Below are positions 38,763 through 53,457 of a DNA stretch of 64,000 nt, piece by piece. Every line of letters begins with the position of its first letter. The first letter of the stretch is position 1. A model generated the notes under the pieces. That model was not told the origin of the DNA, made no database searches, and saw nothing but the letters and a program-made list of their open reading frames with translations. The position numbers were made by a program, and so were the translations under genes. Origin of the DNA: Candidatus Hydrogenedentota bacterium (GTDB lineage: Bacteria; Hydrogenedentota; Hydrogenedentia; Hydrogenedentales; JAEUWI01); the NCBI GenBank assembly GCA_016791475.1, contig JAEUWI010000042.1:1-64000 (forward strand), given 5' to 3'.

Positions 38763-39035
38763 CTTTACCCGTAGGAGGTCGACGCCACATTCACTGTAAA
38801 GTCATTCAAATCGCAGGGTTCCCTGGGGGAAGTCACCCCGAAGCCCTGTCCCATGGGAGTACTATATCATGTAGATCCAAAATTGGCCAAACACAACATA
38901 TCCCGATTTTCCGCGAATTCCCAATCACACGCACCGGGGAGTCCCAAATCTTCCCGGCGTCGCTCCCTCCACGATCCTAACGGATAGTAGCAGTATCGGC
39001 CGCATAAGTGTCAAATTTCTGCCGCCTGCCCTGGA

Positions 39036-40253
39036 CTAGCCCGCCAGGTCGTGGTAGAGCCGGGCGCTCAACGCCACACGCGACGGTTCGCTCGACGTGC
39101 GCCATGCGTTCAGCAACGCCCTGACCTGAGGCCGACTTGCTCGCAGGCCCCACTTTATCCGCTCGTACAGCGCGGTATCGGATTCGGTCGACGCCACTTC
39201 GAGGAGCCGGATAATCACTTCCTCATCCTTGGGGGACACGGCGGCCAGTCCGTAGTAGATCGCATTATGCCGGACCAGCGCCGCCTCGTCGCGGCTCAGC
39301 TTTAACAGGGTATCCACCGCCCGGGGGTGCATGTGGGTCGCCGCCAGAACCCACCGTTCACCAATCAGGCGGGCCGCGAGCGCCCGGACACGAGGGTCCG
39401 AATCGGAAGCGCACCGTGAGAAAGCGGCCAGCACGCTCTCGGGAAGGATTGGAAGAACGTCATTGCGCTGAACGAATTCGAGTGCTGCGTTGCGCCCATC
39501 CGACGTGCCCGAGTCCAATTCCCTGAGTATTTCTGGGAGCCTGTCGCCGAATTTATCGAGAGCGCGGGCCCGGTTGCGATCGCGGACCCAGTCCTGCGCC
39601 TTGAGTTCCCGGTTCCAGAGCTTCCGAATGATCGCCAGCTTCTCACGGTCGACATCGCCCCCGTGCGCGGTGTAATCGTCAAGTATGGCCAGCGCCTCGC
39701 TGCGTTGATCGGCAATGGCCCATACCACCCGGCTGAGTTCGTCGCCATCTTCGGATGCGAGACTGAGCGCCGCCAGCGCCCGGAGCACGTTGGGCGGCAG
39801 GGGTCGCACGACGGACACGCCAAACCGAAGGGCGGCGCTTCTGGCCTCCGCAGCCCCCGCCTGTTCCTGGTCGATGTCCAGCGCGTGGTACATGATCTCC
39901 ACCGCGTTCCCGTCCTGCGTGGATTGACCTTCCACAAAGCGGCGACCCAGCCAACGGAGAAGCTCGGCGCGATCTCCCCTGTAGTGGCGAAAGCCCTGAC
40001 GAACCGTTGCGAAGACGCGCGATTTATCCGCTTCATCCCGATTCGGAGCGGCCCAGAGCGCCGCCAATTCCGCGGCGCCCTGAGCGCTATCGGGAAAGAA
40101 CCCTTCAAAGTTTGGCGGTAAATAGCGGTCTTCCGCGCACCAGGCAAGGTCCCTATCGGGATGGTCCGCCGCCCCGACCTGGCGCGGGGACACGAGGTAG
40201 AACGTGAAGTAACAGAGAAGGACCAGCCCGTGTGCGGCACCCGTTCGACGCAT
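39036..40253 (-). CDS. Secreted HEAT-like repeat protein
   Basis: A 405-residue protein with a Sec signal (residues 1-28, ending VGA-A). The mature part is helical and built of HEAT-like repeats; the clearest units are CASDSDPRVRALAARLIGE and RDEAALVRHNAIYYGLA. It probably serves as a periplasmic interaction scaffold; no enzymatic motif is seen. It is followed on the same strand by nothing close, and preceded at 40275 by a zinc-ribbon membrane protein 21 bp upstream, so the two probably form an operon. Confidence 0.75.
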   Translation of the reverse strand: MRRTGAAHGLVLLCYFTFYLVSPRQVGAADHPDRDLAWCAEDRYLPPNFEGFFPDSAQGAAELAALWAAPNRDEADKSRVFATVRQGFRHYRGDRAELLRWLGRRFVEGQSTQDGNAVEIMYHALDIDQEQAGAAEARSAALRFGVSVVRPLPPNVLRALAALSLASEDGDELSRVVWAIADQRSEALAILDDYTAHGGDVDREKLAIIRKLWNRELKAQDWVRDRNRARALDKFGDRLPEILRELDSGTSDGRNAALEFVQRNDVLPILPESVLAAFSRCASDSDPRVRALAARLIGERWVLAATHMHPRAVDTLLKLSRDEAALVRHNAIYYGLAAVSPKDEEVIIRLLEVASTESDTALYERIKWGLRASRPQVRALLNAWRTSSEPSRVALSARLYHDLAG

Positions 40254-40274
40254 CCTTCCCCTCCTTTGGCGCCC

Positions 40275-41324
40275 CTAAAGCGCTATGGCCGCGACGATAC
40301 CCTGCACCAGGCGGTGAATCACAAACGTGCAGGGCCAGAGCAGCAATGAACAAAGCAACCAGGAAAGACAGAAGCTGATGGCGCTTTCGAGGCGCAGCGG
40401 ATAGCGCTCCGCAATCATCATCAGTTTTATCATCAGCGCAATCGTCGCCGCGAGCCCCACCAGAATGCGGTAGAGCATCATAAACACCATGAAGTAGGTT
40501 GCGGCAAGCGTGACCAGTTCATTGAGAATGGTGAACACAACCGCGAGGTAGGCGACCGTCGGCCAGTTCTCCTCGATTCCCCCCTCGTAGGCCAGGCGGG
40601 ACCATGCCAGTGCGGCGTAGAGCGTTATCCCCTGGCCCAGGGTGCTGACGGCAATATTTACCCCCCGGACTACCCAGTGCCACGCCGTGGGCAGATCGGC
40701 CGCCTTCTCCATATCGGACATAAAGAGTGTGGCCATCCACCGCTCCACCGGAAGCACGTTGATGGCGACAAGCGCGACCGCGGCGACGACGGAGAGGGTG
40801 ATGATTTCCTTGCGCTTTCTTCTCTCTTTCTCTTCCGCCTCGGGGTGGGGCTGCTGGTGCATTTTGCGCGGGGGCGCGGGCCGATAGAGTTCGCGCCGGA
40901 GCCAGTCTTCCGGCTTTATATAATCCTTCTCCGCCTGGGTGTGGCAGATATGGCACACCACCCCGTCCGGGTGACGGTGCATGTCCCAGTCTCCGCGAAA
41001 CTCGCGCTGACACCGGGCGCAGCGCGCCTCGGCGTCCGGGGTGCGGACCGCCTCGCGCACTCGCCCCTCCCATGCGCGCTGAACAGGCGGGGGCGACGCT
41101 TCCTCCGCAACACCCGAGGGACTTTCAAAGGCGTGGGTCGTGCTGAACTCCCCTCCATTGTCCCCGGGGAGACCTCCGACCACGGGGCTGAACTCTTCGG
41201 CCTTGTAGTCACCACCGCCGGAGCGAAGGGGCTGACCGCAGGCGAGGCAACAGGGTACCTCGCCGAATCCGAATCCATCGATGTTGTTTCGCTGCCCGCA
41301 TGAGCAAATAATTGATCGCCCCAT
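40275..41324 (-). CDS. Zinc-ribbon membrane protein
   Basis: A 349-residue protein with two cysteine-rich zinc-finger-like modules before the membrane part: CSCG...CCLACG at about residues 6-35, and CARCQREF...CHIC at about residues 95-122. A basic stretch of Lys/Arg (about residues 155-165) precedes about five membrane helices in the C-terminal half. Related predicted proteins are uncharacterised. The start ATG at 41324 has AGAGG 4-5 nt upstream; a GTG at 41336 in frame is the alternative. It diverges from rsgA. Confidence 0.75.
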   Translation of the reverse strand: MGRSIICSCGQRNNIDGFGFGEVPCCLACGQPLRSGGGDYKAEEFSPVVGGLPGDNGGEFSTTHAFESPSGVAEEASPPPVQRAWEGRVREAVRTPDAEARCARCQREFRGDWDMHRHPDGVVCHICHTQAEKDYIKPEDWLRRELYRPAPPRKMHQQPHPEAEEKERRKRKEIITLSVVAAVALVAINVLPVERWMATLFMSDMEKAADLPTAWHWVVRGVNIAVSTLGQGITLYAALAWSRLAYEGGIEENWPTVAYLAVVFTILNELVTLAATYFMVFMMLYRILVGLAATIALMIKLMMIAERYPLRLESAISFCLSWLLCSLLLWPCTFVIHRLVQGIVAAIAL

Positions 41325-41462
41325 GATGCCTCTCACTGGTTGAGTGCCCTGTTTAGCCCTCTTCTACGCCAATCCCCGTGCGAAACGCAAACCGGATGCG
41401 CATATCCGGATACAATCAGGGGGGAACATGCATTCAACCTCACCCCTTCGGGAGATCGAGAA

Positions 41463-42536
41463 GTGGAAGAATCACTGGCGTCTCTGGGCTTCCTGCCCTG
41501 CTTCCAGACGGCCATGGAAGAACACGGCTGGGCCCATCTTGAACCCGGTCGGGTGGTCGAGGCTCACCTGGAAAAATACCTCGTGCGCAGCGCGCAGGGC
41601 CTCCACAAAGCCGAAATATCCGGAAAACTGCGGTTTTCACTCGACGAGCGCTCCGATTTCCCCACCGTGGGGGATTGGGTGGCCATCGCAGTTTTCGATG
41701 ATGGCACGGCGGTGGTCCACCAGCTCCTGCCGCGAAAGACCGCGCTCTGTCGGCGCGCCGCGGCCCATCAGTCGACCCGGCAAGTCATCGGCGCAAACAT
41801 CGATGTAGCCCTTATTGTCCAGGCTGTCGAACGCGACTTTAACCTGAACCGTCTGGAGCGCTATCTGGCTGCTGCGCACGGCGGCGGCATCGAGCCTGTG
41901 GTGGTCTTGAGCAAGTGCGACTTGATGGCGCCGGAAGAAGTGGAGGCCCAAACCGCAAGAATCGAGTCGAGACACCCCGGCCAGCGGGTACTCCACACCA
42001 GCAGCATGGAAGCCGGCGGACTGGAAGCGCTCAGGACCTTTCTGGAAGACGGCAAGACCTATTGTGTGCTCGGTTCTTCCGGCGTGGGCAAGTCCACGCT
42101 GATCAACGGGCTCCTCGGAGAGGAATTGTTGGATACCCAGGAACTGAGCGATTGGAATCAGCGGGGCAAGCACACGACGACCCACCGCGCCCTTTTTCTG
42201 GTTCCATCCGGCGGCATTCTCATCGACACACCGGGCATGCGGGAATTGGGGCTGGCGGACGGCGAAGGAGGACTCGACCGGACATTCGCCGACATTGTCG
42301 CCCTCGCGGAGAACTGCCGATTCAGCGACTGCAGCCACGGCGACGAACCCGGCTGCGCCGTCGTCGCGGCACTGGAATCCGGGGAACTGGACCCGGAAAA
42401 ACTGGAGAACTACGAAAAGATTCGCCGGGAAGCCGCGCACTATGAAGCATCGGCCGCGGAGAAGCGCAAGAAGGACCGCAACTTCGGTAAGCTCGTCAAA
42501 CGCATCAAGAAGGAGAAGTATGGGAAGCACTTCTGA
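41463..42536 (+). CDS. rsgA: Small-ribosomal-subunit biogenesis GTPase RsgA
   Basis: A 357-residue circularly permuted GTPase that assists late maturation of the 30S subunit. An N-terminal OB-like fold is followed by G4 SKCDL, then G1 LGSSGVGKSTLIN and G3 DTPGMRELGL. The C-terminal zinc site is CRFSDCSHGDEPGC and the chain ends in a Lys-rich tail. The start is a GTG at 41463, with GGGAGA at 41450-41455 and 7 nt spacing; frame sequence further upstream is not RsgA-like. It converges with the acyltransferase gene. Confidence 0.93.
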   Translation: MEESLASLGFLPCFQTAMEEHGWAHLEPGRVVEAHLEKYLVRSAQGLHKAEISGKLRFSLDERSDFPTVGDWVAIAVFDDGTAVVHQLLPRKTALCRRAAAHQSTRQVIGANIDVALIVQAVERDFNLNRLERYLAAAHGGGIEPVVVLSKCDLMAPEEVEAQTARIESRHPGQRVLHTSSMEAGGLEALRTFLEDGKTYCVLGSSGVGKSTLINGLLGEELLDTQELSDWNQRGKHTTTHRALFLVPSGGILIDTPGMRELGLADGEGGLDRTFADIVALAENCRFSDCSHGDEPGCAVVAALESGELDPEKLENYEKIRREAAHYEASAAEKRKKDRNFGKLVKRIKKEKYGKHF

Positions 42537-42569
42537 GGCGCGCGCGATACACTCGCAATTCGACGGAAG

Positions 42570-43190
42570 TTATTTCCCGGTCGGCTCCTCAGACGGTGGC
42601 TCTTCGGTTGGCGAATCAAACCCGTAGAGCGCCAGCAGATCGGCATGGCGCTTCAACGCGCTGCCACTGGAGGAACCGTCCCGATGGCCAATCAACTGGG
42701 CGCTGGGCGCCCCGGCCCAAATTTCCCCCGGTCCCACGTCCTTCTTGATAATACTGCGGGGCACGATGACGGCCCCGTCACCCATGGTAACCCCGGGCAT
42801 GATATAGCTGTGGGCACCGATGAAGCAGTTCTTCCCGATGCGTATCGGAGCCGTCTGGTGCGGTGTCAGGCGCCAATGAACGTCCGTACCGTGAAAGGTG
42901 TGGTTCATGTCGCGCAATACGGCGTAGGCCTCCACCGAGGTACCATCACCGATCTCTACGTATTCATTGCCGGCGACCAGCACATGGTCTCCCAGCGTGA
43001 CGTCGTTGCCCAGCACGATCTTGCCGAGCCTGTGGGTGCGCAGAAGCACGTTGTTACCCAGTATCACGCGATCACCCAGTTCCACATGACCTTTGATTTC
43101 AAGATAAGTGGCGAGAAACTGACAGTCCTTCCCCACCTTTTCAAACTGCTTCGCGAAGTTGCGCGCGCGTAGGCTTTGCATAATTCCCAT
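42570..43190 (-). CDS. Hexapeptide-repeat acyltransferase (LbetaH, WbbJ/maltose-acetyltransferase-like)
   Basis: A 206-residue left-handed beta-helix acyltransferase. About eight hexapeptide turns run from residue 30 to 165 (VELGDRVILGNNVLL, IVLGNDVTLGDHVLV, IRIGKNCFIGAHSYIMPGVTMGDGAVIVPRS). The loop with DMNHTFHGTD contains a candidate catalytic His. It probably acetylates a sugar or lipid-linked substrate from acetyl-CoA. The ATG at 43190 has AAGGAA 8 nt upstream. It diverges from the radical-SAM-like gene across a 385-bp spacer, so an operator there could act on both. Confidence 0.85.
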   Translation of the reverse strand: MGIMQSLRARNFAKQFEKVGKDCQFLATYLEIKGHVELGDRVILGNNVLLRTHRLGKIVLGNDVTLGDHVLVAGNEYVEIGDGTSVEAYAVLRDMNHTFHGTDVHWRLTPHQTAPIRIGKNCFIGAHSYIMPGVTMGDGAVIVPRSIIKKDVGPGEIWAGAPSAQLIGHRDGSSSGSALKRHADLLALYGFDSPTEEPPSEEPTGK

Positions 43191-43434
43191 TACGTAGATT
43201 CCTTCAATGCCATTTTACCGGTCCACCACACCGTGGCACAATGCCCAAAGCCTTGTCACCACTTGTGGGCGCGAGTTCTCCCGCAAATGCCGTATCAAAT
43301 CACTACACCCGCTTCCACTTTCTACCAAATCCCCAGTTTTCACCCTGAGACTATTCACCCGCCTTGAATTGCGCAAAGTGTTTTGTGGCAAGGACTAAGA
43401 TATGTCTGCCGCCCCGAAGAAGCCAAAAAATGGT

Positions 43435-43448
43435 GTACATTTTTGTAC
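43435..43448. promoter_or_regulatory. GTACA-N4-TGTAC operator-like inverted repeat
   Basis: GTACATTTTTGTAC has perfect 5-bp arms and a TTTT centre. It directly abuts the -35 hexamer that begins at 43449, the position of an activator or repressor site. Confidence 0.65.
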
Positions 43449-43477
43449 TTGCACAGTTTTTGTATACGTGCTAGTAT
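43449..43477 (+). promoter_or_regulatory. Sigma-70 promoter of the radical-SAM-like / ketosynthase / kinase operon
   Basis: TTGCAC (43449-43454) and TAGTAT (43472-43477) are separated by 17 bp. Transcription would begin about 90 nt before the ATG at 43576. Confidence 0.65.
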
Positions 43478-43575
43478 GTTGCTCAATATATAGCGTCACT
43501 TTATCTTCGTTTGGTCTACATATTGTGTATGGCACGGCTCGCCTACGGGAAGAGCCTGGGACGAAACAATTATCC

Positions 43576-45255
43576 ATGGGTAGTCGAATCCACCTATATG
43601 CGCTTCCGGGATTGCCCATTCACGTGGACGATCTCATGCCGCAGCCCATGCTGGCGCGGTGCAGCGGCACCCTTGTCGCCCAGGGCCATTCGGTACTGAT
43701 TATCGACGAAGGGTCCGTGGACTGCCTCGACGCCGCCTGCTGCCCCGCCCTGAACCATGCCCTGGCCGATCACCTGGACCACGTGGAAGGCCGCCTCGAA
43801 GGCTGGGCCGGCAGATTTTCGTCGCGAGAACGCCACCTGCGACGTGCCGTGGACAGGTTTCGTGGCGAACGCGTCGCCCGCGTCATCGCCCGACACGCGG
43901 CAGCGCCTCCCGACCTGGCCCTGATCCAGATTCATCGCCCGAAGGACGTGGCCGATGCCCGCCTCCTCGCGCAAGGGCTCAAGGAGCGCCATCCCGGCCT
44001 TGTTGTGGCGGTCGCGGGTGAATTTGTAGAGAATTTTGCACGGCTGCTCCTTCACGGCAGCGCCGAATTTGACGCCGCCTGCCTGGAGTCCCCCGAATCC
44101 GTGCTCACCGGTCTTGCCCGAAGTCTTGCCGCGCGGGAGCAGTGGGCCTCTGTTTCCGGCCTGCTGTTTCGGGATGGCGCCCGTCTGGTGGAAGGCGCGG
44201 GCGGCGCGCTCCAAATCGATCCGCGCTTTTCCTCCGCGGACTACCATCCGGCCCGGTATCCCGGCCTGCTGGACGGCGGCAAGATCAAGCTCTTCACACT
44301 GCCCCAGACCACGGGCCACGCCCACCGCGGGCATTACCGCGGGGGCTCCCCGCCGCGCAAGCGCGTGGTGCGAGAGTGCCGCCAGTTGCGATCGGACCTT
44401 GAGCAACTGCACCGCCTCTACGGGGCGGAGATCTTCCACGTCAGTGGAAGCCACACACCGGCCGAAATGGTGCAGGGCTTCGCATCGGAGTGCCTGGGCC
44501 TTCCCTTTTCCATTCGCTACAGCCGCGATGCCCACGTACACGAACTGGGCGCGGACGCGGTCCACGCCTTGAGCGTTTCAGGTTGCGAGGCCGTGGGATT
44601 GACCCTTCTTACGGGCAGCCAGTGGACACTGTCGGACTACTACGGCGAAAACTGGACCATCAGCGAAGCGGAGACCTGCCTGCGGCACATTCGTTCCCAT
44701 GGGCTGTACGTCCACACGACTTTTACCTTCCCCTGCCCGGTGGACGACTACCACACCCGCGCGGAGACCTTCCGAATCGTCCGCCGGAACCGTCCGGATG
44801 GAATTCGGTTGAGCCTTCCGACGCTGGCGCCCGGGAGCGCCTGGTTTCAACATGCCAGTGAGTTTAATTTCGACCTTTCGCTTAAGAAACTCGAGGCCTG
44901 GGTCTGCAATCCCCCCTTCACCGCGAACCTGCGGGATGAGGCGGCCAGCCTCCCATTCCAGATCGGCTCGCTCCGGGCAACCGGTGTGGCGGGACGCTGC
45001 GCCGAGGCGTCCGCGGAGCTGGCGGAACTGGAGATCGCGGAAGTCGCCGGTGCGGCCGTCGCCCTTATGGCCCGGGTATCGGGATACGCCGGTCATGAAT
45101 CCGAGTATACGCGCACGCTCGAAGACGCGGCGCTCCGCCTGGATCTCGGCCACCTGCGCGAGGCCATCGAACTATTCAACGTCCGGGCGACCGCCTCGAT
45201 CAATACCATCGACCTGTTCCCGGCGGTTCCGGTCAAGAAAGTTGTGGGGAATTAG
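43576..45255 (+). CDS. B12-binding/radical-SAM-like protein lacking the cluster cysteines
   Basis: A protein of 559 residues laid out like B12-dependent radical SAM enzymes (BchE/HpnR style). A Rossmann-like N-terminal domain (LVAQGHSVLIIDEG; ADARLLAQGLKERHPGLVVAV) is followed by a hinge (VSGLLFRDGARLVEG) and a TIM-barrel-like part: LRSDLEQLHRLYGAEIFHVSG, GCEAVGLTLLTGS, RSHGLYVHTTFTFPCP and LAPGSAWFQHA. The place of CxxxCxxC (about 44290-44370) reads TLPQTTGHAHRGHY and has no cysteine, so it cannot bind the SAM cluster in the usual way. The B12 motif DxHxxG is also absent. It is probably non-catalytic or remodelled. The start is uncertain: ATG 43576 follows the promoter but has only a weak ribosome binding site. 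Confidence 0.7.
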   Translation: MGSRIHLYALPGLPIHVDDLMPQPMLARCSGTLVAQGHSVLIIDEGSVDCLDAACCPALNHALADHLDHVEGRLEGWAGRFSSRERHLRRAVDRFRGERVARVIARHAAAPPDLALIQIHRPKDVADARLLAQGLKERHPGLVVAVAGEFVENFARLLLHGSAEFDAACLESPESVLTGLARSLAAREQWASVSGLLFRDGARLVEGAGGALQIDPRFSSADYHPARYPGLLDGGKIKLFTLPQTTGHAHRGHYRGGSPPRKRVVRECRQLRSDLEQLHRLYGAEIFHVSGSHTPAEMVQGFASECLGLPFSIRYSRDAHVHELGADAVHALSVSGCEAVGLTLLTGSQWTLSDYYGENWTISEAETCLRHIRSHGLYVHTTFTFPCPVDDYHTRAETFRIVRRNRPDGIRLSLPTLAPGSAWFQHASEFNFDLSLKKLEAWVCNPPFTANLRDEAASLPFQIGSLRATGVAGRCAEASAELAELEIAEVAGAAVALMARVSGYAGHESEYTRTLEDAALRLDLGHLREAIELFNVRATASINTIDLFPAVPVKKVVGN

Positions 45256-45261
45256 CGAACT

Positions 45262-46506
45262 ATGGAAATCAATGCGGTAGTCGTAACCGGCATGGGCGTA
45301 TTGTCCTGCAACGGCATTGGACGCGAGGCCTACTGGGACGCCATTGCGGCGGGGCGCACGGGCATACGCAATATAAAGCGCTTCGACGCCTCGGACCTGC
45401 CCTGCCAGATCGCGGGAGAACTCTGGGATTTCAATCCCGAAGATTTCATGAAAAAGAGCGTGGTGCGCAACTGGAACCGCCATGTCCACCAGGCCATCGC
45501 CGCGGCGCGCCTGGCGGTTCAGGACGCGGGCCTGAAGGCCGCGGGCTACGATCCGGAGCGGATCGGTGTTTCGGTGGGCACGAGTATCGGCTCACCGGAC
45601 GAGGCCTACAAGGGCCACATGGAGGCGATGGAGACGGCGGGCTACAAGAAGATTAACAAGCTGGCTTCGTCGGCCTTTTCCGGACATTCGGCCACGGTGC
45701 ACGTGTCGATCGATATCGGTGTTCGCGGACCGGCCATCACGATTGCCAGCGGCTGCGCCACGGGGCTGGACGTGTTGAACTGGGGCTACAATCAGATTCG
45801 CATGGGCTATGTCGACGCGGCGGTGGTGGGCGCGACGGAATCCCCTATTTTCCCCCTCTCCATCGCCTCAGCCTGTTCGCTGGGCATTCTTTCGCGGCGC
45901 AACAACGATCCAGGCGGCGCCATGCGCCCCTATGATCGGCACCGCGACGGAATTGTGCTCAGCGAGGGCGCATGCACGCTGGTGCTGGAACGGGCGGACA
46001 AGGCGCGCGCCCGTGGTGCGCGCATCTTCGCCGAAGTGGCGGGCACTGGCTCGGCCGCCGAGGGCCAGAACCCTCTGGTGCTGGAGGCGGAAGGCAAGAC
46101 CCTGGCCCGGGCAATCCAGTCCGCCATGACCACCGCGGGGATGGGGCGCAGCGATGTCGGCTGCATTCAGGCCCACGGCGTATCCCTCGAAATGTATGAC
46201 CGCTGCGAAACCAATGCCTATAAGCGGGTATTCGGCGAGCAGGCCTACCGCATCCCGGTCAGCGCGGTCAAGTCGATGATTGGCCAGTCCTATTCCACGG
46301 GCGGCCTGATGGGGGTGGGCGCCGCCCTGATGACACTCGAGCGGGGTATCCTTTCGCCGACGGTGAACCTGGAGGATCCCGATCCCGCCTGCGACCTCGA
46401 TTTTGTGCCGTTGAAGGCGCGGATGAACGATATTGACTCGGCGCTCGTGGTCTCCATCAGCTTCGGCGGGACCCACTGCGCCACCGTACTGCGGAAGGTT
46501 GCCTGA
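45262..46506 (+). CDS. Beta-ketoacyl synthase (FabF-like) with Cys-His-Gln active site
   Basis: A 414-residue thiolase-fold condensing enzyme clearly related to KAS II. The nucleophile C165 (SGCATG) and the first His H305 (QAHGVS) are present. The second catalytic His, normally in KSMxGH, is Gln (Q342, KSMIGQSYSTGG), and the FGGTN loop near the C-terminus reads FGGTH (H405). This is unlike housekeeping FabF, where both His are invariant and Asn follows FGGT. The chemistry may be altered (e.g. non-decarboxylating, acyl-transfer or chain-length-setting). It begins 6 nt after the radical-SAM-like gene and ends 2 nt before the kinase gene, so it belongs to the same operon. Confidence 0.9.
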   Translation: MEINAVVVTGMGVLSCNGIGREAYWDAIAAGRTGIRNIKRFDASDLPCQIAGELWDFNPEDFMKKSVVRNWNRHVHQAIAAARLAVQDAGLKAAGYDPERIGVSVGTSIGSPDEAYKGHMEAMETAGYKKINKLASSAFSGHSATVHVSIDIGVRGPAITIASGCATGLDVLNWGYNQIRMGYVDAAVVGATESPIFPLSIASACSLGILSRRNNDPGGAMRPYDRHRDGIVLSEGACTLVLERADKARARGARIFAEVAGTGSAAEGQNPLVLEAEGKTLARAIQSAMTTAGMGRSDVGCIQAHGVSLEMYDRCETNAYKRVFGEQAYRIPVSAVKSMIGQSYSTGGLMGVGAALMTLERGILSPTVNLEDPDPACDLDFVPLKARMNDIDSALVVSISFGGTHCATVLRKVA

Positions 46507-46508
46507 AC

Positions 46509-49025
46509 GTGGCCGATATCTCCGCGATAGCGACCTCGACGCTGCTGATAACAGCCGCGGTGTCGAGCTGCCTCCTGGGCCTGCTGGTCCTGGTGCGCAA
46601 TCCGGAGCGGAACACCCATCGATTTTTCGCCCTCCTGACCCTGAACCTCGCCCTGTGGTCGGCGGGTGTGTTTTTCATCATTCACTCCCACACCGAGGAA
46701 AGCGCGCGCAACTGGATTATGGTCACCTTTGCCGTGGCCAGCTTCCTCCCCGCCACCTTCTATCATTTCATCGGCTATTTCCCCGATCAGAAGTTCAAGG
46801 GAATGACGTGGTACCTCTACCTGCTCTATGCCGCGGCCATCACCCTCACGGGGCTGGTGAATACCCGTTGGTATATTGTCACGCTTCATCCCTTCGAAGA
46901 CGCGCCGCCCCAGGCAACCTATGGACGGGTGTTCGACGTCTATTCGATCATGATCGTGGCGACGATGACCCTGATGTTCGTCAACCTGTTCCGGAAACTC
47001 CGCCACAGCCAGGGCATCCAGCGGCGACAGATCGAGCATGTCATCGCCTCCATCTTCGCCGGCGTGGGGCTGGCTTCCGCCACGAACGTCATCGCGCTGG
47101 CCCTTTTCGGCGTGGACAGCATGCAGCAGTATGGGCCCTGCTTCATGGTGCTGATGATGGCGGGCCTCGCCTACTCGATGGTCCGCTACCACCTGCTGGA
47201 CATCTGGTTCATCCTCTCGCGGACTACGGTATACGCCTTCGTTACCGTCTTCGTCTTCATCCTCTATTTTTCGGTCGTTACACTCGTCCACGCCGTCTTC
47301 AGCCAGGCGGGCCGCGCCTACGACATGCTCAGCATCGCCCTGACCTCCATGGTCGTGGCGGTGGTCATTCAGCCCCTCCGCGAGCGCGCCCAGCTCCTGC
47401 TGGACCGGGTCATCCGGCACCGCCGCTACGATACGGAAGCCCTCAGCCAACGCATCACGCGTCTGGCCAATCAATATGTTCAATTGGAGCACATCATGGA
47501 GCGGGTGTCGGCGGATTTGCGCCAGACCCTCGGCGTCACGGGCCTGCGGGTGCTGCTGGTGGACAAGGGCAAAGACCCGCTGGTCTATACGGCCTACTCG
47601 ACCCGGGACACCAACCCCGCGCCGGACGCATCGATCGGATTCGTGCTGGACTACGTGGCCGGCAATTTCGAGCCCCTTATCCTGGAAGAGTTGGAGCACC
47701 GCTCCCCCATCCCCCAGACCGCCCGCCTGGCCAAGAGCCTCCGGGCGCTCGGTGCGCAGGTCGTGATTCCCCTGGTCACCCAGTCCGGCGTGCTCGGGCT
47801 GATCGTCCTGGAGGACAAAGAAACCCACGACGTCTACACCTACGACGACTGGCGGGTTTTTTCCACCATCGCCGGCCCCCTCGCGACGGCGATAGAAAAC
47901 TCCCGCCTCTACGGCCAGCTCGAAGAATTGAACGTGCACCTGGAACTAATTCTGCGCAACATGCGTGGTACGGTTATCGCCGTGGACACGAATGGCGTCA
48001 TCAAGACGATCAATCAGGAGGGCCGTTCCGTGCTGGGTCCCGTCAGCCCCGGCATGTCGCTGGGGGTACTCGACACCAAGGTGGCCCACCTCCTCCAGAT
48101 GACCCTGGACAACAAGCGCGGCATCGTGGATGTGGAGACCAATATTATCAATGGGGTTGGCGAGGAAATGCCGGTGGCCATGTCCACCTCGTGCCTGGAT
48201 ATGCCGGGCCAGGGCATGAAGGGGGCGATGGTGCTGATCCACAACATGACCCAGATCAAACGCCTTGAATCCAATGTACAGCGCGCGGACCGGCTCAATT
48301 CCATCGGCACGATGGCCGCCGGCATGGCCCACGAAATCAAGAACCCGCTCCAGTCCATCAAGACATTCACCCAACTGCTCCTGGACCGTTACGACGATGC
48401 CGACTTTCGAAATACCTTCGCCGAAGTGGTTCCACCCGAAGTGGACCGCATCGACAACATCGTGACGCGCCTGCTCCACTTCGCGCGGCCGCAACCGGTT
48501 TCCTTCCGCCTTCACGACATCCGCCAGATACTGACCAACGTCTTCGCGCTGGTGGAAAACCAGATGCGGAAGTCCGGCGTGGCGCTGCATCTGGACATGC
48601 CGGAGAACGGCGTGGGCGTGATGGCCGACAATCAGCAGTTGCATCAGGTCTTTCTTAATCTGGTGCTCAATGCCATCGAGTCGATGACGGACTCGCCCAA
48701 CCCCATGATCGAAGTCAAGGTGAGCACGGGCCACGGGCGGCTGCAACAGAAGGGCTCCGTGCTTCGTCACGACGTGCCCTGCGTCCGCACCGTCATCCGT
48801 GATCGGGGCTGCGGGATCTCTCGCGAGCACCTGAAACAGTTGTTCACGCCGTTCTTCACGACCAAGGCCGATGGCAGCGGGCTGGGGCTGTCGGTGGTGC
48901 ATGGAATTATCACGGAACATCAGGGTGTCATTGATGTAAGCAGTACCCCCGGCGCCGGTTCGTCCTTTACTGTAACTTTCCCGCTGGCGGGGAGCACCGA
49001 ATCCATCGAAAGGGTCGGGCTATGA
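46509..49025 (+). CDS. 7TM sensor histidine kinase
   Basis: An 838-residue membrane kinase. About seven to eight N-terminal membrane helices (residues 5-290) resemble the 7TM histidine-kinase input module. Then follow a GAF-like domain (about 320-470), a PAS-like domain (about 475-590), HisKA with H608 in GMAHEIKNPLQSIKTF and a HATPase with all boxes: NLVLNAIES, RDRGCGIS and GSGLGLSVVHG. The kinase is predicted to be active. It starts with GTG 2 nt after the ketosynthase stop, so it is translationally coupled to it. Its stop overlaps the next kinase by ATGA. Confidence 0.9.
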   Translation: MADISAIATSTLLITAAVSSCLLGLLVLVRNPERNTHRFFALLTLNLALWSAGVFFIIHSHTEESARNWIMVTFAVASFLPATFYHFIGYFPDQKFKGMTWYLYLLYAAAITLTGLVNTRWYIVTLHPFEDAPPQATYGRVFDVYSIMIVATMTLMFVNLFRKLRHSQGIQRRQIEHVIASIFAGVGLASATNVIALALFGVDSMQQYGPCFMVLMMAGLAYSMVRYHLLDIWFILSRTTVYAFVTVFVFILYFSVVTLVHAVFSQAGRAYDMLSIALTSMVVAVVIQPLRERAQLLLDRVIRHRRYDTEALSQRITRLANQYVQLEHIMERVSADLRQTLGVTGLRVLLVDKGKDPLVYTAYSTRDTNPAPDASIGFVLDYVAGNFEPLILEELEHRSPIPQTARLAKSLRALGAQVVIPLVTQSGVLGLIVLEDKETHDVYTYDDWRVFSTIAGPLATAIENSRLYGQLEELNVHLELILRNMRGTVIAVDTNGVIKTINQEGRSVLGPVSPGMSLGVLDTKVAHLLQMTLDNKRGIVDVETNIINGVGEEMPVAMSTSCLDMPGQGMKGAMVLIHNMTQIKRLESNVQRADRLNSIGTMAAGMAHEIKNPLQSIKTFTQLLLDRYDDADFRNTFAEVVPPEVDRIDNIVTRLLHFARPQPVSFRLHDIRQILTNVFALVENQMRKSGVALHLDMPENGVGVMADNQQLHQVFLNLVLNAIESMTDSPNPMIEVKVSTGHGRLQQKGSVLRHDVPCVRTVIRDRGCGISREHLKQLFTPFFTTKADGSGLGLSVVHGIITEHQGVIDVSSTPGAGSSFTVTFPLAGSTESIERVGL

Positions 49026-50935
49026 ACGTGTTGCTGGTCATTGCCGAAGACAGGAGCGTTTGGGAGGCGCTGCGCGCCTCGCTGCCGGAGGGCGACTTGA
49101 TCCTGCATGAGCCCAGCGTGGCCACCGCCCGCCGCCGGATCGCATCGGTAACGGTGGACGCGATATTTCTGGACGACACCTCCCTCAGCGGCGAGAACCT
49201 GGTCGAGGCGGTGAAGGACATGGCGCCGGGCGTTCCCCTCGCGGTCCTCTCCAATCGCGAGGACCTGCTGACCCAGGCGGCCCTCACCCGATCGGGCGCG
49301 AATGCCGTACTCACCAAGCCGTTTTCCTGCGATTCCCTACAGGAGGCCCTGGCTTCCCTGGTTCATACGACGGTCATGGCGAGCGTGGTGCAGCCCCACC
49401 TGGAAGTGCCGAGCCACCAGCCGATTTTCCTGGGCCAGCACCAGATGGCCCTTCGCTGGATCAGCCGCCTGACCGGATGCAAGGATGACATGGACCGGTT
49501 GGCCCGCCGCCTGATGGAGGCCACGGTAGACATTTTCGACGCGACCCGCTGCTGCCTGCTGCTGGAAAAAGGCGGGCGCGTATCCGTGGGCGCGTCCCAC
49601 GGGCTCAATGAGCACATCACCGGCCAGCTCCGCCTTTCCTTCAGCGCTGGACTGATGCACTGGTTTGACAGCCACGCGTGCCTCTTTGATGTCCACGCCA
49701 TTCGCTCCTCGCCCCAGGCGCTGAAAGAACTGCAAGTCCTCAACGGCATCCTGGCGGCGCCCCTCATGCGGGATGGCCAGGTCTTCGGCGCGCTGGTTCT
49801 CGGTGAAAAGGCCTCGGGGCTCTCCTATGTGCAGGAAGAGCGCGAGCTACTCTCGCTCTTCGTGCGCTCCGTGGAGATCCTCTTCGAAGACATGTCGCCC
49901 TACCGGCGCATCGAACACGAAACGCCGTCGGTCATGGCGGGCGATCTTCCGGTCGGCCTGGTCTCCGTTTCCGGAGATCGCAAAATCATGGCGCTGAACA
50001 AGCGGGCGGAGATCCTCCTGCAACTGTCCGCGGCGAAGGTGCTGGGGTCCAGCGTGCAGAAGCTCGGCTCCGCTTTTGCCGATGTCATCCTCCGGAGCAT
50101 GGCGCGCAAGGAATCGCGCTTCAATGAGGTCATTCGCGATCCCGTTTCCAAAGGCCAGCTCTCCCTCAATGTGGCCCCCGACCCCCACGGCGGCGCGACG
50201 GTTGTCTTCCAGGCCCACGCCGAGGATCGGGTCTCCCAGGAAGAAATCGCCTACAGCCCCTTCTGGGAATATCTCTCCACCCGCGTCGCCCAGGAAATCA
50301 AGAACCCGATGGTGGCCATCAACACCTTCGCCCAGCTCCTGCCGCGCAAGTATGAGTCCGAAGACTTCCGGGACGCCTTCAGCCGGGTGGTCCAGCAGGA
50401 AGTGGAGCGCATCAACCGGGTCGTGGAGACCCTCTTCGAATTTGCGCGCAACCCCAACCTGCGCCTCCAGCAATGCGACATCAATGAGACCGTCCGGTCG
50501 GTATTGAGCTCTTTCGAGACCGAGCTGGCAAATCGCTCCATCAAACTGGCGCAGAATTACGATCCGGACCTGGACGAGACCGACATGGACCCGGTCTTCT
50601 TCTCCCAGGCCCTCCACAATGTGGTGCAGAACTCCATCGAGGCGGTGCCTCCAGGTGGTACAATACAGGTCAGCACGGCGCGCAAGGACAACTCAATCGA
50701 GATACGCATCGCGGATTCCGGCCCCGGCGTGCCCAAAGAAGAGACGGACCGCATTTTTCTGCCCTTCTACAGTACGAAGGAGCACGGGATGGGTCTGGGC
50801 CTGACGATCGCCAATCGCATTCTCCACCAGCATCAGGGCGCCATTCGGTGGGTCACTGATGAAAAGGACGGCAATTATTTCGCCCTTCAGATACCGACTA
50901 CGGAGCTGAGCCATGCAGACCATTCTGGCGATTGA
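49022..50935 (+). CDS. Receiver-GAF-PAS-HATPase pseudokinase (phospho-acceptor His replaced by Gln)
   Basis: A 637-residue soluble protein with an N-terminal receiver-like domain (residues 1-115; acidic E9-D10, DD at about 51-52 in IFLDDTSLSG, Lys in LTKPF). A GAF-like domain (about 150-280) and a PAS-like domain (about 295-400) follow, then a HisKA-type helix pair and HATPase with NSIEAV, DSGPGVP and GMGLGLTIANRIL. The H-box reads VAQEIKNPMVAINTFAQLL: Gln at residue 424 (CAG, 50291-50293) stands where the upstream kinase has His. ATP binding is probably retained but autophosphorylation cannot occur. It starts by a 4-nt overlap with the active kinase. Confidence 0.9.
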   Translation: MNVLLVIAEDRSVWEALRASLPEGDLILHEPSVATARRRIASVTVDAIFLDDTSLSGENLVEAVKDMAPGVPLAVLSNREDLLTQAALTRSGANAVLTKPFSCDSLQEALASLVHTTVMASVVQPHLEVPSHQPIFLGQHQMALRWISRLTGCKDDMDRLARRLMEATVDIFDATRCCLLLEKGGRVSVGASHGLNEHITGQLRLSFSAGLMHWFDSHACLFDVHAIRSSPQALKELQVLNGILAAPLMRDGQVFGALVLGEKASGLSYVQEERELLSLFVRSVEILFEDMSPYRRIEHETPSVMAGDLPVGLVSVSGDRKIMALNKRAEILLQLSAAKVLGSSVQKLGSAFADVILRSMARKESRFNEVIRDPVSKGQLSLNVAPDPHGGATVVFQAHAEDRVSQEEIAYSPFWEYLSTRVAQEIKNPMVAINTFAQLLPRKYESEDFRDAFSRVVQQEVERINRVVETLFEFARNPNLRLQQCDINETVRSVLSSFETELANRSIKLAQNYDPDLDETDMDPVFFSQALHNVVQNSIEAVPPGGTIQVSTARKDNSIEIRIADSGPGVPKEETDRIFLPFYSTKEHGMGLGLTIANRILHQHQGAIRWVTDEKDGNYFALQIPTTELSHADHSGD

Positions 50936-52298
50936 TGATGAACTGAGCATCCGGGAATCCTACCGGATAATTCTCAGCGACGACTACCGGGTGTACCTGG
51001 CGGAAGATGGCGCGACGGGCCTCCAGATCCTTTCCGAGAAGCATGTGGACCTGATCCTCCTCGATCTCACCATGCCCGGCATGACGGGGATGGACTTTCT
51101 GGAGCGCCTCGACGAACGGGGCGAGATGGTTCCCGTACTGATTGTGACCGGCTCCAACACCGTGGATATTGCGGTAAAGGCCATGAAGAAGGGCGCGCGC
51201 GAATTCGTTATCAAGCCTTTCGACGTCGACGATCTCACCACGCTCGTGGAGCGCACCCTGGAGGAGCTGCGGGAAAAGCGCGAGCTGTCCACGCTGCGCG
51301 AGCAGGGCTCGGCGGGTTTTGAGCACATTATCGGAGAGGCCCCGTCCCTGCTGGAAGCCCTGGCCAAGGCGCGTCAGGCGATGGAAGTGGACTCCACGGT
51401 GCTGATCACGGGCGAAACGGGCACCGGCAAGGACGTCCTGGCCCGGGCGATTCACTTCGGCGGCAAACGCAAAGCCGACCCCTTCGTTCCCCTTTCGTGC
51501 TGCGCCATTCCGGCGAACCTGGTGGAGAGCGAACTTTTCGGTCTCACCAAGGGCGCCTTCACCGGCGCCACCGAAAGCCGTGTGGGCAAGATGCAGGTGG
51601 CCGATCGCGGAACGCTCTTCCTGGACGAAATCGGCGAGATGCCCATCGAGGCCCAATCCAAGCTCCTGCGCGTCCTCCAGGAAGGCACCTTTTATCCGGT
51701 GGGCGGCAATCGTGAAATCGAGGTCGATGTACGCTTCATCTGCGCGACCAATCGCCCCTTCGACAAGGCCATCGAGGAAGGACTCTTTCGCCAGGACCTC
51801 TATTACCGCATCAACGTGCTCCCCATCACCATGCCGCCCCTGCGCAAGCGACGGGAAGACATACCCAAGCTCATTGCCCACTTCGTGGCCAAGCACGGCC
51901 CGCGGGTCAACTCTCGCGTCCAGGATTTCGAGGCCCGGGCCATGTCGCGCCTCATGGCCTGCCAGTGGCCGGGCAATATACGTGAACTCGAAAACACCGT
52001 GGAGCGCATTCTCGTCTGCCACAGCGGCGAACGCATTATCCGCGCGGAATACCTGAACGGTATCGTAGCCGGCGAGGGCGGCGTCGAGGTCAATGGCCTG
52101 GAAGACTTCGCCGGACTCCCCCTCCAGGAGGCCACCCAGCGCCTCGAACGACACCTGATCAAGAAAGCGCTGGAGCAATGCAACTACGTCCAGTCCCAGG
52201 CGGCGGATGCCCTCGGGACAACCCGGCGTATCCTCAAGTACAAGATGGACCAGTTGGGCATCAGCGACCAGGAAGACAAACAGTCCCTGGCGAGTTGA
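50913..52298 (+). CDS. NtrC-family sigma-54-dependent response regulator
   Basis: A 461-residue activator. Receiver: residues 1-120, phospho-acceptor D51 (LLDLTMP), Lys in VIKPF. AAA+ domain: Walker A GETGTGKD (about 167-174), GAFTGA loop (214-219) for contact with sigma-54, Walker B LFLDEIGEM. A Fis-type HTH (about 430-455) ends with TTRRILKYKMDQLGI. It therefore drives sigma-54 promoters. It overlaps the pseudokinase gene by 23 nt, so the three signalling genes are coupled. The target is unknown; a candidate sigma-54 site at 5464 lies far away. Confidence 0.93.
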   Translation: MQTILAIDDELSIRESYRIILSDDYRVYLAEDGATGLQILSEKHVDLILLDLTMPGMTGMDFLERLDERGEMVPVLIVTGSNTVDIAVKAMKKGAREFVIKPFDVDDLTTLVERTLEELREKRELSTLREQGSAGFEHIIGEAPSLLEALAKARQAMEVDSTVLITGETGTGKDVLARAIHFGGKRKADPFVPLSCCAIPANLVESELFGLTKGAFTGATESRVGKMQVADRGTLFLDEIGEMPIEAQSKLLRVLQEGTFYPVGGNREIEVDVRFICATNRPFDKAIEEGLFRQDLYYRINVLPITMPPLRKRREDIPKLIAHFVAKHGPRVNSRVQDFEARAMSRLMACQWPGNIRELENTVERILVCHSGERIIRAEYLNGIVAGEGGVEVNGLEDFAGLPLQEATQRLERHLIKKALEQCNYVQSQAADALGTTRRILKYKMDQLGISDQEDKQSLAS

Positions 52299-52557: not shown

Positions 52558-53457
52558 ATGAGCATTACCGTCGTTGGCTCTGTTGGCCTGGATACTGTGG
52601 AAACGCCTTCGGGCCGCAATGAGGAGGGCCTGGGCGGGGCGGCGGTGTACTTCTCCCTCGCCGCGGCCAACTTTGTACCTGTCAATCTGGTCGGTATCGT
52701 GGGTGAGGACTTCCCCGCCGAGCACGTGGCGCTCCTGGAATCGAAACAGATCAATCTGGAGGGCCTGGAACGGGCGGAGGGAAAGACCTTCCGCTGGTCC
52801 GGAAAGTACCACGACGATGTGAACGAGCGGGACACGCTCGACACGCAGTTGAATGTCTTCGAGACCTTCCACCCCAAGCTCCCCGAATCAACCCGGAACG
52901 CGCCCTATCTCTTCCTCGGCAACATCCATCCGGCCCTCCAGCTTGAAGTGCTGGACCAGGCCCAGCCGAAGTTCATCGCCCTGGACACGATGAACCTGTG
53001 GCTCACCATCACCCTCGGCGAGGTGAAAAAAGTGCTCGCCCGCGTGAACTGCCTGATCATCAACGATGGCGAAGCGAAGCAGCTCACCGGCGAAATGAAT
53101 CTGCGCGATGCGGCGCGGGCGATCCGCGCCATGGGACCCTCCATCGTGGTCATCAAGAAAGGCGAGCACGGCTGCATGCTCTTCGGCGCGGACGGCGAGA
53201 TTTTCTCGATTCCCGCCCTGCCGCTGGAGGTGGTCATGGACCCGACCGGTGCGGGCGACAGTTTCGCCGGGGGCTTCATGGGCCATATCGCCCGGAGCGA
53301 CGCCACCGACTTTGAGACCCTGAAGCAGGCCGTAGTGTATGGCAGCGCCTCGGCCTCCTGCACCTGCGAAGCCTTCGGCCCCGACGCCCTGGCGGCGGCG
53401 GACACTGCGAAGATTCAAGAACGCTACGCGGCCTTCAAACAACTGACGTCCTTCTAA
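52558..53457 (+). CDS. PfkB-family carbohydrate kinase
   Basis: A 299-residue ribokinase/PfkB-type kinase. The N-terminal glycine motif EEGLGGAAVYFSLAAA and the C-terminal signature DPTGAGDSFAGGFMG with catalytic D234 are intact. Substrate-specific lid residues do not tell the sugar. It phosphorylates a sugar or nucleoside in the cytosol. AAGGAA precedes the ATG by 9 nt. It is followed 51 bp later by an exported Gfo/Idh/MocA enzyme, and a terminator follows that gene, so a two-gene operon for catabolism of one polyol or sugar is plausible. Confidence 0.9.
   Translation: MSITVVGSVGLDTVETPSGRNEEGLGGAAVYFSLAAANFVPVNLVGIVGEDFPAEHVALLESKQINLEGLERAEGKTFRWSGKYHDDVNERDTLDTQLNVFETFHPKLPESTRNAPYLFLGNIHPALQLEVLDQAQPKFIALDTMNLWLTITLGEVKKVLARVNCLIINDGEAKQLTGEMNLRDAARAIRAMGPSIVVIKKGEHGCMLFGADGEIFSIPALPLEVVMDPTGAGDSFAGGFMGHIARSDATDFETLKQAVVYGSASASCTCEAFGPDALAAADTAKIQERYAAFKQLTSF

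Follow-up and report, generated by a model that had tools for sequence, protein, structure and literature searches.

What does a fatty-acid-type condensing enzyme do when its gene is packed among those of sensor kinases and a sigma-54 activator? The question is raised by the window, the whole stretch of 64,000 nucleotides analyzed here from contig JAEUWI010000042.1 of a Candidatus Hydrogenedentota bacterium, in which a reading of ORFs and domains places five tightly packed same-strand genes at 43576-52298(+). In order, these encode a B12-radical-SAM-like protein, a beta-ketoacyl synthase (KS), two kinases (HK1 and HK2) and an NtrC, and they lie among the following features:

42570..43190, minus strand: hexapeptide-repeat acyltransferase, divergent, an optional companion (PF00132; PRK09677 WbbJ at 64 bits, cut-off 243)
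43191..43575, no strand: divergent intergenic region of 385 nt, with no sigma-54-like site at ≤2 mismatches
43576..45255, plus strand: B12-binding radical-SAM-like protein, 559 aa, without CxxxCxxC (weak HpnJ/BchE matches, AlphaFold, Foldseek)
45262..46506, plus strand: KS, FabF-like beta-ketoacyl synthase (PF00109/PF02801, TIGR03150, residue alignments)
46509..49025, plus strand: HK1, with HisKA_7TM, GAF, HisKA with H-box AHEIKNP, and HATPase (domain matches, H-box alignment)
49022..50935, plus strand: HK2, receiver-like, GAF, PAS, HisKA with AQEIKNP, and HATPase (domain matches, alignments)
50913..52298, plus strand: NtrC-type sigma-54 activator, with receiver, AAA+ with GAFTGA, and Fis HTH (domain matches; GAFTGA read in the translation)
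52558..53457, plus strand: PfkB-family sugar kinase (family name by eye), found 3' of NtrC in the window's phylum

A sequence-only reading had described one packed operon, and the coordinates agree with it: the radical-SAM gene is followed by KS after a gap of 6 nt (45256-45261) and KS by HK1 after 2 nt (46507-46508), after which HK1 and HK2 overlap by 4 nt (49022-49025) and HK2 and NtrC by 23 nt (50913-50935). The radical-SAM-like ORF opens at 43402, but relatives align from the very first residue of a 559-aa product, which makes 43576 the very likely start of this gene; the divergent intergenic region accordingly comes to 385 nt. The acyltransferase reported beyond this region is indeed present in the window, but it is a partial companion, being divergent upstream in 8/40 relatives' loci (L031, L032, L033, L036, L037, L050, L055 and L070); it stands at another place in L034, and some other relatives' contigs end too soon to judge.

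A chance neighborhood of the five genes is ruled out by the recurrence of their order throughout the window's phylum, which bears out the earlier suggestion of a dedicated unit: it is conserved, and it includes sensing proteins. HK1 lies next to KS in 36/36 readable loci of this phylum, HK2 and NtrC follow HK1 wherever the contig extends far enough, and the radical-SAM gene precedes KS in 35/37 loci, the remaining two being at contig ends. PfkB comes after NtrC in many loci of this phylum, and we regard it as a frequent neighbor rather than an established part of the unit. The adjacency counts used here and below cover only the KS of the window's clade, separated by score (raw totals of 37/36/36, 24/24/20 and 22/21/19 included other KS genes of the clusters and L259 as readable); they leave out the unreadable loci L032 and L174 (187 nt remaining), L259 (406 nt) and L264 (75 nt), and count L114 and L267, which are one locus, once. 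Judged by score, the KS of the window is a discrete family, since full sequences reach 606-798 bits and the next homolog 346, the lone intermediate (421 bits) being a KS truncated where its contig stops; at E≤1e-100, the clade is present in 38/68 genomes of the phylum.

A scan of GTDB contigs, the listed matches of which contained no record of the window's phylum, yielded at least 80 KS loci, at least four of them beside 7TM kinases among the matches listed (L087, L114, L157 and L104). L087 belongs to Planctomycetes and L114 to Rokubacteria, and in the KS tree both join the window clade (SH-aLRT 98), L157 and L104 being placed elsewhere and FabF separately. The gene order is HK1-KS-HK2-NtrC in L157 (Verrucomicrobia) and KS, a PF07993 reductase, HK1, HK2 and a receiver-HD protein in L104 (Nitrospiraceae). 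L145 holds a relative of the L104 KS, accompanied by PLP-synthase-like, reductase-like and B12-radical-SAM-like genes (by eye) and by no matching kinase. Phylum searches, with a threshold set above the measured KS background, recovered the KS clade in at least 20/392 Planctomycetota genomes (a lower bound, four candidates per genome having been scored) and in 22/95 genomes of the Rokubacteria-type phylum of L114, where loci were examined from 20 of the 22 KS-positive genomes. HK1 follows KS in 20/20 Planctomycetota loci and in 18/18 readable loci of L114's phylum. Relatives with KS and kinases unlinked, which the sequence-only reading had named as refuting, were not seen for this clade wherever the contig was long enough to tell. 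In Planctomycetota, a B12-radical SAM precedes KS in 18/20 loci (the other two holding a fragment at the contig end), an HK2-like gene is found in 17/20 and NtrC in 12/20. Rokubacteria clusters read KS-HK1-HK1'-HK2 and, on contigs that are long enough, include a receiver-kinase hybrid; neither a radical SAM nor an NtrC match came up in those examined. At least three phyla share a core of KS, HK1 and degenerate HK2, to which two of them add B12-radical SAM and NtrC. In a tree of HK1 and other 7TM kinases, the HK1s linked to a KS do not form a group of their own across phyla, and L166, an HK without such a link, is placed next to those of the window's group, although its branch is long and weakly placed; HK1 orthology across phyla therefore rests on synteny and architecture.

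How much of the catalytic machinery survives? Two of the five proteins had been said to lack a hallmark residue; the losses are real, but they number three, namely the radical SAM motif, the second His of KS and the His of HK2. The window KS retains Cys165, His305 and Lys337, has Gln342 in place of the second catalytic His and scores 361 bits against NCBIfam TIGR03150, under the curated cut-off of 493.75; the Cys-His-His plus Lys pattern of KAS II/FabF is thus incomplete. Across the KS sequences aligned from three phyla, truncated L032 being excluded, Cys, first His and Lys never vary (69/69) and Gln takes the place of the second His in 61/69, that is in 29/29 full sequences of the window's phylum, 15/20 of Planctomycetota and 17/20 of Rokubacteria; it is kept in 8/69 members of the clade, with gene order unchanged. 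Because of the three invariant residues, the KS is, on alignment evidence, not a dead relic. With FabF (KAS II) it has in common the fold, the Cys, the first His and the Lys, and it differs in its Gln, in its score under the TIGR03150 cut-off and in forming a separate set in the KS tree.

The two kinases have fared differently. HK1, with a phospho-His-bearing HisKA and a HATPase_c domain, has the make-up of a sensor histidine kinase, and its H-box AHE[IV]KNP is intact in 27/27 readable operon rows of the window's phylum (omitting L045 and L050, truncated, and L067 and L068, unrelated kinases). The phospho-accepting His of HK2 is replaced by Gln in 23/23 readable rows, those omitted from the 27 being L039 and L044, where the row held HK1, and L047 and L048, which have gaps. 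In Rokubacteria, HK2 reads DEIKNP, with Asp for His, in 13/13 selected frames, and the ATP-lid boxes are also gone in the five aligned; in Planctomycetota, 14/17 HK2-like frames are only 466-513 aa long, the three short ones aligned having no H-box, and the remaining three (two long, one partial) read AHY[IM].NH, with His kept and Glu lost. The HK2 of L157 in Verrucomicrobia keeps the His in a box altered to SHELANA, and that of L104 in Nitrospirota keeps HEIRNP and has no HATPase match. HK2 is, as judged from these motifs, degenerate as a kinase by differing routes across lineages. In Caulobacter, the DivL-CckA pair has been described as a case in which a pseudokinase directs the pathway of an active kinase (PMC5361649, PMC4211667). 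As far as the available parts of these sources go, the likeness is one of common logic only, a kinase-dead partner being kept beside an active kinase. DivL itself is not known to combine a receiver-GAF-PAS make-up with a linked KS.

The radical-SAM-like protein had been called cysteine-less, which holds for its iron-sulphur motif and not for the protein as a whole: a three-Cys motif of any spacing was searched for in it and none was found, but it has 12 Cys in total, one of them within the motif region. Its matches to the HpnJ/BchE family are weak, and its AlphaFold model (pLDDT 87, pTM 0.90, from an alignment that included cysteine-bearing relatives) shows a B12-binding domain and a radical-SAM barrel fold; Foldseek with this model returned TsrM 6wte first (E 4e-16, TM 0.61), then AprD4, OxsB, CysS and TokK. 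Among complete operons of the window's phylum, CxxxCxxC is kept in 7/26 and lost in 19/26, with two changes when mapped on the KS+HK1 tree, and other three-cysteine spacings were sought in the motif-less operon radical SAMs of this phylum without any being found. Of 21 KS-less loci with a radical-SAM gene, 19 are clear family matches with the motif in 0/19, and it is present in L183, a weak family match. Identity between the window and L033 is 89% for KS, 74% for HK1 and 46% for the radical SAM, and in the cysteine-bearing pair L051-L057 it is 86%, 77% and 68%, respectively; because its divergence is high relative to that of KS and HK1, the radical SAM seems, in this small comparison, to be under weaker constraint than its neighbors where the motif is lost. 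Planctomycetota homologs carry C-x4-C-x2-C in 18/18 readable loci, and two of them score 126 and 108 bits against the window-family profile. Relatives at E≤0.001 occur in 63/68 genomes of the window's phylum, the weakest possibly belonging to other radical-SAM families. Without KS, HK1 and HK2 in the same stretch, the gene is found beside PfkB in L063, L064 and L066 and beside NtrC in L176, lone loci that look like block losses; because it stands without KS and kinases in some relatives, it is not obligatory to the unit. The view that all five genes are obligatory together is not supported: the radical SAM has no KS or kinases beside it in many relatives and is missing from the Rokubacteria clusters, where NtrC is missing as well, the latter also having been seen in no more than 12/20 Planctomycetota loci.

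Most Planctomycetota carriers of the KS look like anammox bacteria, as a hydrazine synthase alpha domain is matched at 91-108 bits in 14 of their 20 KS genomes (absent in 6), nearly always in frames of 809-831 aa; this is support and not proof, because three contrast genomes, the window's genome included, match the same domain at 38-89 bits. In anammox bacteria, ladderane synthesis has been proposed for kuste2802-2805, that is an "ACP synthase", a B12-radical SAM, FabF and a non-canonical FabB, in two papers in whose accessible text the word "kinase" has 0 occurrences (Rattray 2009, PMC2649909; Javidpour 2016, PMC4790861). Judged by gene content, 6/20 Planctomycetota loci (L229, L231, L235, L236, L242 and L245) resemble this cluster, with two extra KS genes, one a canonical FabF and the other having both His replaced and the Cys displaced by one residue in the alignment; L242 also has an 88-aa ACP-like gene (by eye). 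An attempt to match the non-canonical KS to Kuste2805 by its printed residues failed, Phe163, Asn298 and Glu333 having no counterpart in the six aligned, and because of this mismatch in a comparison by content alone, it is probable rather than proven that the six loci are of the kuste2802-2805 type. What they would have in common is a B12-radical SAM, a KS, a FabF and a non-canonical KS together; unlike kuste2802-2805 as presented in the accessible portions of its papers, where kinases go unmentioned, the set here is accompanied by HK1, NtrC and mostly HK2. We know of no ladderanes in the two other phyla bearing the KS clade.

At the output end, the window NtrC has a Sigma54_activat domain with GAFTGA and a Fis HTH, as a bEBP should. 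A GAFTGA-type motif is present in 18/20 full NtrC of the window's phylum (L051 and L056 being without it), and a sigma-54 factor in 60/68 of its genomes, a near universality that led us to reject sigma-54 as a co-distributed partner; the 6/38 KS-positive genomes without a sigma-54 match are drafts, 60-93% complete. A search for a sigma-54 site near the locus had been suggested; at ≤2 mismatches none was found in the operon's divergent region, and the whole window holds 7 such matches when shuffles average 11.6; an autoregulated sigma-54 promoter at the operon was rejected on both counts. Planctomycetota loci have isolated one-mismatch sites only, in L232, L237 and L240. Genome-wide, strict sites number 69 in 20 genomes versus 24 for a reversed control pattern, and 66 of the 69 were inspected, the other three lying within 1.5 kb of an rpoN match. 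The genes 3' of strict sites include flgB/flgG-like, pilin-like, rpoN, MoxR, PEPCK and AmtB-like genes and four PEP-CTERM genes (by eye); several sites fall inside mechanical ORFs and resemble chance, and nothing among the 66 links them to the operon's NtrC. Those before PEP-CTERM proteins lie at 76-151 nt in L278, L296, L299 and L313 (4/66; genomes G035, G036 and G041), the one of L299 within a mechanical 179-aa ORF.

Known signaling systems offer partial parallels. The best NCBIfam matches are of the AtoS/AtoC type (HK1 271 bits, NtrC 415 bits), under cut-offs of 646 and 714; the sensor part differs, and the operon adds a KS and a pseudokinase. In CqsA/CqsS and LqsA/LqsS quorum sensing, the gene of a lipid-type signal synthase stands beside that of a membrane histidine kinase, this synthase being a PLP enzyme and not a FabF-type KS; no PLP-dependent signal synthase was found among the ten window proteins scanned (36003-52298). 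The earlier statement that no described system has this content holds to the extent that no description of the gene set as a signaling unit was found in open-licence literature, judged by titles and abstract openings, and needs amending in that part of the set resembles the published anammox ladderane-candidate cluster.

We consider the best explanation, at about even confidence, to be a ketosynthase-coupled two-component relay, in which KS would make the ligand or carry the acyl chain, HK1 would sense, HK2 would be a pseudokinase and NtrC would provide the output. KS would load an acyl chain on its Cys and make, modify or present an acyl-derived ligand (we infer that this could be a fatty-acyl signal), the variable tailoring partner being the radical SAM or, in Nitrospirota, an enzyme that resembles thioester reductases. 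HK1 would read the ligand or the membrane state via its 7TM/GAF part and phosphorylate NtrC; HK2, without autophosphorylation via the usual His, may act as a pseudokinase that uses its receiver, GAF and PAS domains to sense or gate HK1/NtrC; and NtrC would open sigma-54 promoters elsewhere in the genome, probably those of envelope or surface genes. The adjacency of KS and HK1 (36/36, 20/20 and 18/18), the invariant Cys, first His and Lys of the KS, the integrity of HK1 while HK2 is degenerate, the apparent block losses, the PF07993 reductase of L104, the sigma-54 factor in 60/68 genomes and the GAFTGA-type motif in 18/20 NtrC argue for this relay. Against it, loss of the second His may abolish the decarboxylation needed for a new chain, the fast-evolving radical SAM with its motif lost in 19/26 is hard to fit to one conserved product, and there are the absence of a sigma-54 site at the operon, the non-uniting HK1 tree, the 2/20 NtrC without GAFTGA and the 6/38 genomes without sigma-54.

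It is somewhat unlikely that the locus is instead a lipid-biosynthesis operon, in which KS and radical SAM would build an unusual acyl lipid, the kinases and NtrC only controlling the pathway. The Planctomycetota loci speak for this idea, through the two extra KS of six of them, the ACP-like gene seen by eye in L242, the three cysteines kept by their radical SAM (18/18) and the similar content of the cluster proposed for ladderanes in the consulted parts of PMC2649909 and PMC4790861, to which the kinase-less L145, with its KS related to that of L104 and enzyme-like genes (names by eye), can be added. However, neither an ACP nor a ketoreductase or dehydratase was noticed among the genes of the unit in the window's phylum or Rokubacteria, only kinases; kinases outnumber enzymes, one being retained despite being kinase-dead, and the radical-SAM motif is lost in most operons of the window's phylum. 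In another alternative, which we judge unlikely, the KS would be no synthase but a subunit with a regulatory task: deficient in condensation, it would sense acyl- or malonyl-ACP, bind to HK1 or HK2 and signal the flux of fatty acids. Its conserved Cys, first His and Lys alongside a second His changed to Gln in 61/69 would suit such a sensor, as both histidines are indispensable for malonyl decarboxylation according to the available text of Rattray et al. (PMC2649909), and partner biosynthesis genes were not noticed in two of the three lineages. On the other hand, the second His is kept in 8/69 with the same gene order, and its loss is therefore not required for the role of the KS. The Asn of Cys-His-Asn KAS III enzymes donates a hydrogen bond and Gln can do much the same, so that condensation may be retained.

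That the operon is the phylum's version of PrsK/PrsR, controlling exosortase/PEP-CTERM surface proteins, seems highly improbable, even though both plans unite a membrane kinase with a sigma-54 activator of the NtrC type. To our knowledge, PrsK/PrsR has neither a KS nor a pseudokinase partner. HK1 reaches 97.3 bits where the cut-off of TIGR02916 is 300, and NtrC 350.4 where that of TIGR02915 is 502.6, so that membership was rejected with both family cut-offs missed; no PrsR over the cut-off was found in 24 genomes (0/24), and other NtrC proteins of the window's own genome score higher. An RpoN-dependent PEP-CTERM gene has been reported, in the accessible part of the source, from a bacterium with PrsK/PrsR (PMC9850573), and the strict sites before four PEP-CTERM proteins (4/66) speak in the same direction, as does the presence of exosortase (E≤1e-20) in 24/38 KS-positive versus 6/30 KS-negative genomes. 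Yet 14/38 KS-positive genomes have no strong exosortase match, so the operon is not co-extensive with exosortase, which was rejected as a co-distributed partner given this partial overlap, and the association may follow kinship.

To return to the relay, we tentatively propose, at somewhat less than even confidence, that it represents a new two-component class, in which a Cys-His-Gln KS is an integral component alongside an active 7TM kinase and its kinase-dead partner. The class would span three phyla or more, two further phyla having looser relatives, and anammox genes of the kuste2802-2805 type would then serve signaling and not ring formation. Overall, our observations point to acyl-linked signaling of an undescribed kind in several phyla, apparently including ladderane-making bacteria. 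That several phyla share a gene arrangement coupling a condensing enzyme of the fatty-acid type with a phosphorelay suggests acyl-based signaling in mostly uncultured bacteria. It also bears on the puzzle of ladderane synthesis, as a candidate-like cluster co-occurs with kinases and its KS clade is also found in two other phyla; if this reading is true, genes long listed as anammox ladderane candidates would belong to a signaling module.

The operon promoter may lie within 43402-43575, because these opening 58 codons of the first open reading frame, which belongs to the radical-SAM-like gene, appear non-coding and a sigma-70-like pair was recognized there by eye:

43449, TTGCAC, upstream element of the pair
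43472, TAGTAT, downstream element, at a spacing of 17 nt

At another locus of the window's phylum (L176), the NtrC gene immediately follows the radical SAM gene and the intervening ketosynthase and two kinase genes are absent, an arrangement that looks like a block deletion.

Outside the phylum, two clusters carry ketosynthases that lie near each other in the ketosynthase tree:

L104:9995-18005 (Nitrospiraceae), ketosynthase, PF07993 reductase, 7TM kinase, HATPase-less GAF-PAS kinase, output protein with receiver and HD domains
L145:7319-14401 (Desulfobacteraceae), radical-SAM-like, PLP-synthase-like, ketosynthase, reductase-like and second radical-SAM-like (B12-type) genes, named by eye

The Nitrospiraceae ketosynthase reads AYGNAT at the first histidine motif, and the catalytic residue lost in this protein therefore differs.

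Elsewhere in the window, one protein combines several signalling domains, and its homologue occupies the equivalent position at L033, in the same phylum:

36003-38762, (-), large HDOD, GAF, histidine kinase and receiver protein

In the window's own genome, four matches to PF18582 (hydrazine synthase alpha domain), scoring 75-89 bits, fall in a stretch of about 11 kb (G000:C54 17451-28353); this organism is not known to be an anammox planctomycete.

As for the genome-wide site search within the phylum, a strict sigma-54 site was found 76-151 nt upstream of a PEP-CTERM protein gene at four loci from three genomes (L278, L296, L299 and L313), the encoded proteins being marked by a PEPA motif and a hydrophobic tail, both C-terminal.
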